29,824 nt of DNA. Source: a virus. The notes under the pieces were generated by a model, which saw only the letters and a list, made by a program, of their open reading frames with translations, was not told the DNA's origin and did not search any database. Location: positions 1 to 29,824 of the IMG/VR virus record IMGVR_UViG_3300020470_000142; one strand, given 5' to 3'. A program made the position numbers and the translations under genes. Positions 1,677-6,815 of the stretch are shown in pieces. Each line of letters starts with the position of its first letter. The stretch's first letter is position 1.

Positions 1677-3167
1677 TCACCTTGTTCTCATGTGGTTCAC
1701 CTTATCATATCTGGAAAGATAACCGATCAAATATCTGAGCGCATCTAACGCATGATCATCCTGTTTCATTGGTTGATCTTTGTTTCGTGTTTTACTCCAC
1801 CGATATTTTCGCATTTCCTGTATCAGATTTGTACATGACGAAAAAATAAAAAGACGTGGTTGCCCATCTGCATAAATTTGCAGATACTCTTTAACCAGTC
1901 CAATCATTGTATTCATACCCAATTCTTTTGGGCTTGCTTGTGTTGTCACTTGGAGTTCACGTGCCAGAATCAATCGTGCATCTTTACCAGCGGAATCTGC
2001 CACGGTGAATCTTGGTTTTGGATCGTTTCTCGAAAGTCTTAACATCTCACGCCCATTCTCAAGCGTTGTCCTGTTGGTCATGTAGTATTCTCGAAACACA
2101 TACAGCGCATCATCTGCACCGAATAAACCAGATCGATCTCTATACACCCACAACGTTGCCCATGGATTCCTCACACCAAAGTCCACCGCTCTGTACACTT
2201 CACCATCTTCTGGTATCTGGAACGGTTCAATAACGTGATGACGTGGATCAAATTCAGAATACACCAAACCCTCTTGACTGACGAAATCACCAAACAGTCT
2301 TGTTCTTTGGACGGCTTCTGACATGTGTGCCACGGTGCGCCTTAACTTCAAACTATTGATCCATGGGTTGTCCAATCCAGATATTTGTACACGTGTGAAT
2401 CCATTGCGAATTTCCTCAACGAACTGATCAAACAACCAATTCAAACCATCAACAGGTGTGGCAGTTACTAATACACGCCCATTTAGATCAACCGTTCTCA
2501 ACAGACATTCTTGAAACACTTGATCATCGTTGCCTTCCTCATCAATCCATACCATCTTCACACCTTTTCCTTGGAACTTCTTGCGTCCTGCTTCATAACT
2601 AAGGCAGACAATCTTGCCACCGTTCTCGAATACAGCGGTGGCACGATCTTGAGCATTCCACTTGCTTTTGGTTGTGGTTCTTGGCATGTACTTATCCAGT
2701 TTTGGTCTTACATATTCTATAGAATCACCATACGATAAAGCGACACACCACACGGTGGTTGGTTGTTCTTGTATAAGATTCGATGGCAGATCGTTTAGTT
2801 CAAGCCATTGCTGTACACTCCAATCATTTGATCCTAAAGCGACAGCGACTGCTAACTGCGCACCCAGATCTGTTTTGCCAGCACGGTTCCCACCTCCAAT
2901 CAGATGCGCTTCTGTTCCCATATTAATTAACGCATGCTTTTGACTTGTTCTGGTTTCCTCTATGTTGCAATTAGGACAAAAGAATTTAGTGGTGTGTAGA
3001 TGTCGCATGGGTTCACCGCATCCAGTTGGTCTTTCGTCATTTTCAAGACCACTCCACCGTTCACATCTTGGTGACCATAAACGTGCCAAGGCAAGTGGGT
3101 GATTTGCTTGGATACTCAAAAGCAATTGCTGTTGCTCAAATATGTTCAGCAGTTCACGTTTGTTCAT
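1677..3167 (-). CDS. terL: Terminase large subunit (TerL)
   Basis: A 496-aa packaging motor. The ATPase half shows Walker A GGGNRAGKT (residues 91-99), Walker B VKMVWIDEE (203-211) and the coupling motif VTATP (234-238). The RNase H-like nuclease half shows AVDFGVRNP with D329, VADSAG with D391, and DDHALDALRYL with D470, D471 and D475. It binds TerS and the portal, cuts concatemers and pumps DNA into the prohead. An N-terminal segment has C35, C50, H56, H58, C64 and C67, including CPNC, which suggests an added zinc-binding element ahead of the ATPase. The gene starts two bases after a 17-aa micro-ORF, has only a weak Shine-Dalgarno of its own, and is followed five bases later by the portal gene. 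Confidence 0.96.
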   Translation of the reverse strand: MNKRELLNIFEQQQLLLSIQANHPLALARLWSPRCERWSGLENDERPTGCGEPMRHLHTTKFFCPNCNIEETRTSQKHALINMGTEAHLIGGGNRAGKTDLGAQLAVAVALGSNDWSVQQWLELNDLPSNLIQEQPTTVWCVALSYGDSIEYVRPKLDKYMPRTTTKSKWNAQDRATAVFENGGKIVCLSYEAGRKKFQGKGVKMVWIDEEGNDDQVFQECLLRTVDLNGRVLVTATPVDGLNWLFDQFVEEIRNGFTRVQISGLDNPWINSLKLRRTVAHMSEAVQRTRLFGDFVSQEGLVYSEFDPRHHVIEPFQIPEDGEVYRAVDFGVRNPWATLWVYRDRSGLFGADDALYVFREYYMTNRTTLENGREMLRLSRNDPKPRFTVADSAGKDARLILARELQVTTQASPKELGMNTMIGLVKEYLQIYADGQPRLFIFSSCTNLIQEMRKYRWSKTRNKDQPMKQDDHALDALRYLIGYLSRYDKVNHMRTR

Positions 3168-3169
3168 CT

Positions 3170-3223
3170 TTACTTATGACAATCACACGGATCGCATTCA
3201 CAACATGGGCATGCATCTTTCAT
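3170..3223 (-). CDS. Cysteine-rich micro-ORF, 17 aa, between TerS and TerL
   Basis: The ATG at 3223 overlaps the TerS stop (ATGA), and the TAA lies two bases upstream of the TerL ATG, so the frame fills the gap exactly. The peptide MKDACPCCECDPCDCHK has six cysteines at positions 5, 7, 8, 10, 13 and 15, plus a histidine. It could be a metal-binding microprotein, or a leader whose translation couples TerS to TerL, because TerL lacks a good Shine-Dalgarno. The Shine-Dalgarno for this ORF is itself weak (GGAAACAG upstream), so expression would depend on coupling from TerS. I know of no named family. The unusual composition and exact fit argue against chance, but nothing here proves translation. 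Confidence 0.45.
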   Translation of the reverse strand: MKDACPCCECDPCDCHK

Positions 3224-3648
3224 TCTGTTTCCGGTTCTATCTTCTGCAATTTGCGTTGGTTAACTTTTACTGCTTCCAGAAGTTCTTTGACGTTAACCTG
3301 TCGTGCTTCAACCTGTTCATGCAATGGGTCAACGATGTTCTGTGAATTTTGAGTATATCCATGACGTGTTTGAAGAATCCATGCAGCTGCTCTCCAGTCA
3401 CCACCTTTTGCGGAAGAATTAATACATGCAAGATTATTAACTGCACCAATTGCTTCTGCCTCTTTATAGCGTGTGAAAAAATCGTGGTACTGACCACGCT
3501 GATCTTCTTTACCACGTTGAATCCAATAATATAGGGTGCGCACAGTTATGCCAGCATATCCAGCAGACAGTTGAACGGTGCAACCAAGTCTGATCGCAGT
3601 ACAGATTTTTTGAATTACCTGTTCATTTAGTTTAGTTTTACGTGCCAT
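3220..3648 (-). CDS. terS: Terminase small subunit (TerS)
   Basis: A 142-aa protein directly upstream of TerL. Its N-terminal part reads as a helix-turn-helix: AIRLGCTVQLSAGYAGI, then VRTLYYWIQRG, the segment that recognises the packaging site in terminases of this type. A helical middle (DFFTRYKEAEAIGAVNNL) and the motif GDWRAAAWILQTR, common to many TerS proteins, are followed by a polar helical tail with EQVEARQVNVKELLEAV, probably for oligomerisation. Two ATGs occur in tandem (3651 and 3648). The second sits five bases after AAGGAG and is preferred. The ParB-methyltransferase stop lies at 3651-3653. The stop of TerS overlaps the start of the cysteine-rich micro-ORF. Confidence 0.85.
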   Translation of the reverse strand: MARKTKLNEQVIQKICTAIRLGCTVQLSAGYAGITVRTLYYWIQRGKEDQRGQYHDFFTRYKEAEAIGAVNNLACINSSAKGGDWRAAAWILQTRHGYTQNSQNIVDPLHEQVEARQVNVKELLEAVKVNQRKLQKIEPETE

Positions 3649-3650
3649 CA

Positions 3651-5264
3651 TCACTCCTTGAAACTTTCAACATATTGCCGTTTGGCATCTTCCACTCTTG
3701 CTTCTATTAGTTCAAAATAGTCATCAGTCATTTCACAACCAACAGCATGGAACCCCTCTATTATAGCACCGCATGCAGTAGTACCGGAACCCAAGAACGG
3801 ATCAAGAACAGTACCACCTTGTGGTGTTAGCAATCGACACAGCCACCTCATTAGTTTTAAAGGCTTGACAGTTGGATGAAAGTTTTTAATGTCATCACCA
3901 GTCCTACCAGCACCAGCCCTTGGAGAATTCAAACCATCTGAATCTTCTTTCCTATTAGTAACCACAGCACCTGTTCTTCCCTCAATATGTGCAAGCCCTT
4001 GGTTTTTTTCTTTCTTTTGTGGTTTTGTACAATGGAATGTGTTGGAAGGCCATCTGCCATTTTCACTCCAGTTATTCACAACAAAATCACAGGTGTTAAA
4101 TTTGTTCACAGTTGTTGTCAAGTTTTCATGTAATGGCACAGGTTTGGTTGCTTCTGAACTACCAAACCAGCAGTCATCGCCATAGGCAAATCTTCCGGCT
4201 TCTATGTTTAAACCACCGGTGCCCCACTTCAAAACGTTTTCAGCAATACTCTTGCATTCTGGGTCAATCGGTTTCCTTGCTAACACAGCCGGTTCTTGAC
4301 TTGGCTTTAATCCTGTGCCCCATCCAAACCATTTTTTTGCTTCATCTGTTGCTGGAGCAGTTATGTCTACTTCTACAGATTTGCTTGCACCTATGGTATG
4401 CCGTCCTTTTTCATTTTTGTTAGCGATTCCAGAAGATTTAGTTCCAACCTTAACACGCTGATCTGTTGCTCCAAACTTCTGATCGATGGCTTTGGATATG
4501 TCAAGGCTTTTAGGGAATCCAGATGTGTAGATCCAACTAATCATGTCACGCACTTCAAATCCGGCTTCTGCTATAGCAACACCCATTGGAAAGACTGTTC
4601 TTGATCCACTAAATGCAACCAGATGACCACCGTGCTTGAGAACCCTCAAGCATTCTTGCCACAACTCAACAGAATATGCGATCCCAGTACTATCCCAAGA
4701 TTTGCCCATGAATCCAAGTTCATAAGGTGGATCAGTTACTATAGAATCAATTGAGTTATCTGGCAACTCTTTAAGACGTTCAAGACAGTTGCCTTTTAAC
4801 AGTTTAAACGTCAGATCTGTAAAGACCTTGGGTGGTGGTTCTGGTAGTGGTGCCGGCTCATAATCACCGTCATTCATTAATGCATCCAGTTCATCTTGGT
4901 TGAATCCTGTTGCTTTAAGTTCATCTGGTGTCATGTCCTGTACGAGTTCAAGAAGTTTTGATTCATCCCAGTCTGCTATTTCACCAGTTTTATTATCTGC
5001 AATAGCCATAATCTTTGCTTTTTCATCGGTTATCTCAAGTATGGTGCATGGCACTTCTGTCATGCCCAAATGCTTTGCAGCTTTTAAACGAGTATGCCCA
5101 CAAATAATCATGTTGGTGTTGGCTTGAATCACAAGCGGTGTGCCCCAGTCAACCTCTTGCAGACTTTCAACAACGAATGGCACAGCATCATCGTTGTGCC
5201 GTGGGTTATCTTTCCAAGGCACCAGATCGTTGACGTTCATCCATTTGAATTCTTTAATACTCAT
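3651..5264 (-). CDS. ParB-domain / DNA methyltransferase fusion
   Basis: A 537-aa two-domain protein. Residues about 10-130 are ParB/Spo0J N-terminal-like: VNDLVPWKDNPR, then LVIQANTNMIICGHTRLKAA, then AIADNKTGEIADWD. After a proline-rich linker (PLPEPPPK) comes a beta-class amino-methyltransferase: motif IV DPPY at about 178-181, a variable central region that probably recognises the target site, a conserved TVKPLKLMRWL, and the S-adenosylmethionine motif TVLDPFLGSGTT close to the C terminus. DPPY favours N6-adenine methylation. Such fusions are common in phages and may protect phage DNA or mark it before packaging. I chose ATG 5264 because GGAGG precedes it; the frame extends to 5330 without a good ribosome site. 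The gene sits immediately upstream of TerS. Confidence 0.9.
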   Translation of the reverse strand: MSIKEFKWMNVNDLVPWKDNPRHNDDAVPFVVESLQEVDWGTPLVIQANTNMIICGHTRLKAAKHLGMTEVPCTILEITDEKAKIMAIADNKTGEIADWDESKLLELVQDMTPDELKATGFNQDELDALMNDGDYEPAPLPEPPPKVFTDLTFKLLKGNCLERLKELPDNSIDSIVTDPPYELGFMGKSWDSTGIAYSVELWQECLRVLKHGGHLVAFSGSRTVFPMGVAIAEAGFEVRDMISWIYTSGFPKSLDISKAIDQKFGATDQRVKVGTKSSGIANKNEKGRHTIGASKSVEVDITAPATDEAKKWFGWGTGLKPSQEPAVLARKPIDPECKSIAENVLKWGTGGLNIEAGRFAYGDDCWFGSSEATKPVPLHENLTTTVNKFNTCDFVVNNWSENGRWPSNTFHCTKPQKKEKNQGLAHIEGRTGAVVTNRKEDSDGLNSPRAGAGRTGDDIKNFHPTVKPLKLMRWLCRLLTPQGGTVLDPFLGSGTTACGAIIEGFHAVGCEMTDDYFELIEARVEDAKRQYVESFKE

Positions 5265-5273
5265 ATATCCTCC

Positions 5274-5328
5274 AATAAAAGAATGGTGGAAAGAAAAATA
5301 CAAACTCAAAAGAAACTCTCCACCATTC
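5274..5328 (-). terminator. Hairpin ahead of the ParB-methyltransferase gene
   Basis: A perfect 10-bp inverted repeat, GAATGGTGGA at 5281-5290 and TCCACCATTC at 5319-5328, encloses a 28-base loop. On the minus strand the second arm is followed by TTTTATT and then the GGAGG of the next gene. It could be a weak terminator or attenuator between the early genes and the packaging and head genes. The long loop makes it a poor classical terminator. Confidence 0.4.
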
Positions 5329-5349
5329 AAAACTTATCAATATTTTTTG

Positions 5350-6455: not shown

Positions 6456-6815
6456 TTATTGCTTGATCCTTTTCTTTCTTTTGGGATCATCCTTGAATGA
6501 ATCTTCTATGAGTTGACCACCGGATGCTTGATATTCTTGACGTGAGTATTCAAGGATCTGTGTCAAGGCACGTGATTTAGAAACACCATGAATCGTTGCA
6601 ATCGTTCCAATATACTGGCGATCCATACTGGACAGCATCAGATTGGTTTTGCGGGTTTCATCTTCTATGTTTTCATGTACAGGATTGTGAATGATTTTTT
6701 TACAACCAGAACACACTATTTTGCTCCATCCAAATTTAGCCAGATCGTGCTTGTGTCCACAATCCAAGCAAGCCAAAACAATTCTTCCATTTGGCAAACT
6801 GTTAACGTTTCTCAT
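6456..6815 (-). CDS. Zinc-ribbon protein with an RHH-like C-terminal region (119 aa)
   Basis: Four cysteines, C16, C19, C35 and C38 (CLDC and CSGC separated by 15 residues), form a clear zinc-ribbon signature at the N terminus. The C-terminal half contains LMLSSMDRQYIGTIATIHG followed by VSKSRALTQILEYSRQEY, which reads like a ribbon-helix-helix segment, and it ends in a basic tail (DPKRKKRIKQ). A DNA-binding regulator is likely. ATG 6815 overlaps the stop of the upstream XRE gene and has AAGGAG six bases before it, so the two are translationally coupled and probably act together. It is the last gene of its unit, followed by cassette A. Confidence 0.6.
   Translation of the reverse strand: MRNVNSLPNGRIVLACLDCGHKHDLAKFGWSKIVCSGCKKIIHNPVHENIEDETRKTNLMLSSMDRQYIGTIATIHGVSKSRALTQILEYSRQEYQASGGQLIEDSFKDDPKRKKRIKQ

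Follow-up and report, generated by a model that had tools for sequence, protein, structure and literature searches.

A cysteine-rich micro-gene between the terminase genes of a marine phage appears to be a copy of a portable, probably metal-binding module

The DNA analyzed here (the window) is a stretch of 29,824 nucleotides from a marine phage, positions 1 to 29,824 of the IMG/VR record IMGVR_UViG_3300020470_000142. Table 1 lists the features of its packaging region, in which the genes for the terminase small subunit (TerS) and large subunit (TerL) flank a very short open reading frame (micro-ORF). The listed start of TerS is a GTG at 3654, and an ATG at 3651 or 3648 is the likelier one. Since the stop of the methylase gene (MTase) overlaps the TerS start as TGATG, the four genes form one overlapping run. 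Upstream of MTase, at 6456-6815 of the minus strand, lies a gene for a 119-aa protein, in which what looks like a zinc ribbon (CLDCGHKH...CSGC) precedes a ribbon-helix-helix (RHH)-like segment.

Table 1. Genes and sequence features around the TerS-TerL junction of the window
Feature	Coordinates	Strand	Basis
ParB_N + N6_N4 DNA methylase gene (MTase)	3651..5330	-	Pfam; first gene of the coupled MTase-TerS-micro-ORF-TerL run
TerS, terminase small subunit	3220..3654	-	phrog_4102, E 1.8e-21
ATGA, TerS stop overlapping micro-ORF start	3220..3223	-	sequence
17-codon micro-ORF MKDACPCCECDPCDCHK, stop TAA	3170..3223	-	translation; core kept in 6 relatives
Conserved core C-P-C-C-E-C-D-P-C-D-C-H (pattern C-x2-C-x-C-D-P-C-D-C-[H/D])	3176..3211	-	C, C, C, D, P, C, D, C invariant in clade
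Micro-ORF TAA + AG, 2 bases before TerL ATG; no Shine-Dalgarno-like site	3168..3172	-	sequence
TerL N-terminal four-cysteine element (C35, C50, C64, C67)	2967..3065	-	invariant in five aligned TerL, including L159 (47% identity)
TerL, terminase large subunit	1677..3167	-	Pfam Terminase_6N, E 1.2e-12; phrog_2, E 3.8e-31

The micro-ORF reads on the minus strand from an ATG at 3223 to a TAA at 3172-3170, and cysteine accounts for 6 of the 17 residues of its product, MKDACPCCECDPCDCHK. The plus strand of 3170-3223 translates as LLMTITRIAFTTWACIFH. The TerL ATG stands at 3167, 2 nt beyond the micro-ORF stop. An initial annotation had pointed out this frame without naming its strand, which is the minus strand; its coordinates, cysteine content and fit to both borders were right.

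It was also proposed that a chance frame would rarely fit both borders and have such a composition. The window contains a single frame that starts with ATG, is 12-30 codons long and encodes at least 6 cysteines, and 30 Markov-resampled windows contained 6 such frames, so that about 0.2 would be expected per window. Composition alone is therefore only moderately rare, a point in favor of a chance frame in a short gap, and conservation must decide.

We compared the window with six IMG/VR loci (L002-L007) that have the same TerS-TerL pair and a readable gap. Their TerL proteins are 80-86% identical to that of the window over 495 residues (84% over 366 residues for the truncated L007). All six contain, in frame between TerS and TerL, the core C-x2-C-x-C-D-P-C-D-C-[H/D]. 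The core peptide of the window is CPCCECDPCDCH; L002 has CPCCNCDPCDCH, L003-L005 have CSVCECDPCDCD, L006 has CECCGCDPCDCH and L007 has CPVCECDPCDCD. The codons vary (TGC/TGT; CCA/CCG/CCT) at the invariant cysteine and proline residues, and the window differs from its closest relative, L002, by three synonymous codon changes and one nonsynonymous change. L007 has a gene of the PAPS reductase family (PF01507, E 1.6e-27) inserted between TerS and the core, at about 2134-2995, and the core downstream of it is open and intact. The L007 cysteine frame probably begins at a GTG, with an 11-nt overlap with the 3' end of the PAPS reductase gene. Since the frame is missing from none of the six gaps and the core is frameshifted in none, the comparison upholds the earlier view of a real gene. 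Conservation refutes a chance frame for practical purposes, as all comparative results speak against it, and we regard its probability as negligible.

The motif C-x-C-[DNE]-P-C-x-C was absent from the DNA examined of 74 loci with a distant TerS (25-41% identity), indicating that terminases in general do not need the module. A DNA similarity search against cultured phages gave no match. In a protein search of phage records, all TerL matches were below 60% identity, the best listed being about 24-29%, and no close cultured relative was found; the TerL relatives in cultured phages are thus too distant for testing the TerS-TerL gap. Searches of phage records by tblastn with the cysteine peptides or an RHH fusion (described below) returned nothing or chance matches, and the low-complexity filter may mask such cysteine-rich peptides.

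When IMG/VR was scanned for CDPCDCH alone, 105 stretches were found, versus 7 for a residue-shuffled pattern of equal degeneracy. Upstream cysteines at -5 and -2, which were not part of the query, were present in 64 of 65 distinct peptides, and the seven-codon core occurred in 46 nucleotide spellings. The unasked upstream cysteines and the many codon spellings point to selection on a protein motif, C-x2-C-x-C-D-P-C-D-C-H. That the core of the micro-ORF is under selection as protein sequence is well supported by these comparisons. The residue following the motif is usually G, W, P or a stop.

The module was found in several gene contexts. In the window group (a), the core stands alone between TerS and TerL. 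In group (b), the order is TerS, one or more intervening genes, the cysteine frame, a helix-turn-helix (HTH) gene and TerL, while in group (c) TerL is followed, sometimes after one more gene, by an 82-86-aa cysteine protein and a large ORF read as a putative portal. In group (d), the module is fused to an RHH domain directly upstream of MTase-TerS-...-TerL. In group (e), micro-ORFs of 19-40 residues lie directly 3' of a gene with a putative ribonucleotide reductase-like C terminus, and in group (f) small proteins carry the C-terminal tail CDPCDCHWG-x-x. The module was also found near a UvdE-like gene, away from terminase.

Four large phage contigs (L098, L160, L165 and L182) have a micro-ORF of 19-40 codons, ending in CPCC[GE]CDPCDCH, directly after a gene for 824-836 aa, the C terminus of which (GCVTCKSCGAGKCG) looks like that of a ribonucleotide reductase. 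A relaxed form of the motif occurs inside long proteins and in metallothionein-like micro-ORFs. Among these, a fusion of prohead protease (Peptidase_S78) and capsid in L201 (252-2828) has an N-terminal CETCNCDPCTC, and the viral contigs L213, L230, L245, L253, L265 and L284 contain metallothionein-like micro-ORFs (CNNPxCxCENCTCDPCEC...CGC). Similar micro-ORFs were seen in contigs of Dehalococcoidia/Chloroflexi metagenome-assembled genomes (cellular L344 and L358). Most matches of the motif in genome contigs were frames open by chance, but a few, e.g., those in L341 and L344, could plausibly be cellular or prophage copies.

The terminase contexts differ in their relatedness to the window phage. 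Group (d) is a distant relative, with identities of 56% for MTase, 46-47% for TerL and 29% for TerS. In L159, an RHH protein with a CDPCDCH module is encoded directly upstream of the homologous MTase, itself 56% identical to that of the window. In group (d), the operon is headed by the module as part of an RHH fusion, whereas in the window the module stands alone between TerS and TerL, so that it has moved within one operon. The TerL of group (b) is barely similar to that of the window (22%, E 7e-6 in a single comparison), and no similarity was detectable between the TerL of group (c) and the window TerL.

In group (b), the cysteine frame runs for 70-86 codons without a stop through the HTH gene, which is read in another frame, and in most of the 17 loci it stops on the TerL start (ATGA, TGATG or TTGA). 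Loci with an HTH-crossing frame that stops at or close to the TerL start include L089, L112, L116, L126, L131, L137, L147, L166 and L170, among others. When the HTH gene was shuffled synonymously, the cysteine frame stayed open with a probability of 0.001-0.33 per locus, values that are not to be multiplied because the loci are related. Such a frame could be an overprinted gene or a translational relay.

Beyond the core, the frame of the relatives runs on for 41-50 codons (37 in L002), for a total of 54-66 aa, and stops on the TerL start, as ATGA in L002-L005 and L007 and as TGATG in L006. The window frame has two codons (His, Lys) past the core. The description of the frame as exactly filling the gap thus holds for the window but not for its relatives. 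The difference in length could mean that the window copy arose from the longer frame by truncation and is a remnant in decay. However, the post-core extensions of L002, L004 and L006 are dissimilar in sequence, the window core is intact, and other phages have stand-alone copies that terminate immediately after CDPCDCH (the L098, L160, L165 and L182 micro-ORFs). We therefore consider a remnant rather unlikely.

TerL is not preceded by a Shine-Dalgarno-like site in any of the seven group members (the window and six relatives), whereas a ribosome site such as GAGG or AGGAG does precede most of the window genes checked. The coupling geometry, which is well supported, is that of termination-reinitiation, with ATGA at the TerS end, a 2-nt gap at the window TerL and ATGA or TGATG at the TerL of the relatives. 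The overlaps and the lack of a ribosome site at TerL are consistent with reinitiation from the micro-ORF to TerL, and they support the proposal in the initial annotation that the frame may couple the translation of TerL. In other systems, strict coupling was shown by experiment for 13 of 14 gene pairs with an ATGA/TGATG overlap (PMC6728339). The window frame itself ends 2 nt short of TerL without an overlap, and this counts against coupled synthesis with terminase.

We also surveyed the junctions of all distinct cysteine frames with neighboring frames of at least 70 codons. Of 97 such frames, which are related within groups, 66 started between -30 and +10 nt from the upstream stop (38 at -4 and 13 at -1), and 67 ended between -20 and +15 nt from the downstream start (31 at -4). 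Among random frames from the same loci, 49 of 600 began at the upstream stop and 148 of 600 ended at the downstream start. The cysteine frames have a clear preference for 4-nt overlaps with their neighbors.

Polycysteine leader peptides of mycobacteria are described as cysteine-responsive attenuators. They resemble the present frame as a short cysteine-rich frame before an operon gene, and hairpins are present in the relatives of the window. Between the cysteine core and the TerL start, strong hairpins of unrelated sequence were found in L002 (1050-1178, z -3.6) and L006 (3455-3598, z -4.0), and a further unrelated hairpin in L004 (4820-4960, z -1.5) has a T-rich tail and was scored as terminator-like. 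It could thus be argued that the micro-ORF is a regulatory leader of which translation alone matters, carrying ribosomes from TerS to TerL, through a terminator-like hairpin in the relatives, and possibly sensing the cysteine supply in the way of the polycysteine attenuators. The frame indeed reaches the TerL start across the window group, through the hairpins of L002, L006 and L004, the cysteine frame of group (b) crosses the HTH gene and in most loci stops at the TerL start, and TerL has no ribosome site. On the other hand, invariance is not confined to the Cys codons but extends to Asp, Pro and the exact spacing, in contrast to the mycobacterial leaders. The module also occurs inside and at the C termini of long proteins, from which it follows that it works as protein sequence. 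In addition, neither a hairpin nor a terminator was found in the TerS-TerL gap of the window, so that the terminator hairpin expected before TerL in a cysteine-leader attenuator is absent from that gap. A regulatory leader therefore seems improbable.

The cysteine module probably binds metal, judging from its C-x2-C-x-C-x2-C-x-C-H spacing, in which Asp and Pro are fixed as well, and from its resemblance to the first of the cysteine clusters in bacterial metallothionein. Metallothioneins of the SmtA/BmtA type (PF02069, Metallothio_Pro), which bind several Zn(II) or Cd(II) ions, and the window peptide (CECDPCDC) have a C-x-C-x2-C-x-C cluster in common, and a Synechococcus protein that matches PF02069 (L331, E 8.8e-9) starts with CACDPCDC, the same octapeptide pattern. 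In contrast to bacterial metallothionein, the phage peptides have an additional upstream C-x2 and a His after the core, and the window peptide, which ends two residues past the core, does not have the second Cys/His half. The PF02069 profile did not match the peptide, a doubled form of it or a longer relative, although 17 aa can hardly reach the threshold. Since the match and the second half are both missing, the phage peptides were not filed as metallothionein.

Like zinc knuckles and ribbons, the module is a short portable Cys/His cluster, which occurs alone, at either terminus or fused to RHH; its spacing, C-x2-C-x-C-D-P-C-D-C-H, was matched by none of the entries searched in Pfam, NCBIfam and PDB. 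Profiles from Pfam, NCBIfam and PHROGs did not match the cysteine core of the peptide or its longer relatives, except at chance level in PHROGs. The families phrog_27696 and phrog_21897 (44 and 60 positions, unknown function) aligned weakly over the core (E 0.08-0.96), and membership in them was rejected because the scores are at chance level. The sole profile match was to the RHH part of the fusion (RHH_1, E 2.4e-5; phrog_876, E 4.8e-6). A PDB sequence search with the cysteine peptides gave no meaningful match, and an Rfam search gave none. No paper with the string CDPCDC was found in the literature searched, which did not include subscription papers, and the papers found on metallothionein in connection with phages, or on small phage proteins rich in cysteine, described nothing that matches the module. 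In an AlphaFold model of an 82-aa cysteine protein (overall pLDDT 64), the core is of low confidence and has no secondary structure, which counts against the metal-binding product that we propose below.

The likeness to metallothionein also raises the possibility that the peptide serves the infected cell in general by buffering or delivering metal, with the late operon as a merely convenient site and no action on terminase. The CxCDPCDC pattern is common to the module and the Synechococcus protein, metallothionein-like micro-ORFs (CxxPxCxCENCTCDPCEC type) are present in other viral contigs, and the module also lies beside a likely ribonucleotide reductase gene, UvdE-like genes and on the tails of unrelated small proteins. 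The occurrence far from terminase argues against a strictly terminase-specific role and leaves room for a more general one. Nevertheless, the linkage to terminase is repeated in several lineages, and the module shifts its position within the same MTase-TerS-TerL operon; moreover, a 17-residue peptide has room for few metal ions, and the phage peptides do not match PF02069. General metal buffering is thus a possible but somewhat doubtful explanation.

We favor, with moderate confidence, the explanation that the micro-ORF is a genuine, translationally coupled micro-gene, the product of which is a metal-binding copy of the portable module made together with terminase. The module recurs in terminase operons even of lineages in which TerL is only distantly or not detectably similar, and this argues for the explanation. 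Ribosomes ending TerS would restart at the micro-ORF and again at TerL, and the peptide would be made in step with terminase. The five cysteines of the motif and the His (with one extra cysteine here) would most likely enclose one or two Zn(II) ions in the manner of a single metallothionein cluster, and another soft metal at the cysteines is conceivable. The gene neighborhood faintly hints at an accessory role in packaging. The metal-loaded peptide might conceivably serve the terminase as an accessory or docking element of TerL, or it might keep TerL metallated. TerL was noted earlier to start with a zinc-like Cys/His element of its own; the four cysteines are indeed invariant, but the His is not, since it differs in the 47%-identical TerL of L159. 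With this invariant four-cysteine element, joint metal chemistry or docking is conceivable.

Taken as a sequence family, the micro-protein is a stand-alone copy of an unnamed module. Many uncultured phages, unrelated to one another and mostly from aquatic sources, carry this module, frequently within the packaging operon or next to it. A micro-gene that might have been taken for chance is thus an instance of a module common to many unrelated phages, and a frame of 17 codons is missed by gene callers with the usual length limits. More tentatively, this undescribed, portable metal-binding module may be a shared building block in tailed phages, in the form of terminase-coupled micro-proteins of 17-40 residues or of attachments, that acts in packaging or in its timing. 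Should the peptide indeed bind metal and affect TerL, the packaging machinery, long described as TerS, TerL and portal, would have an added component, and the motif would be a recognizable tag for more hidden phage micro-proteins.
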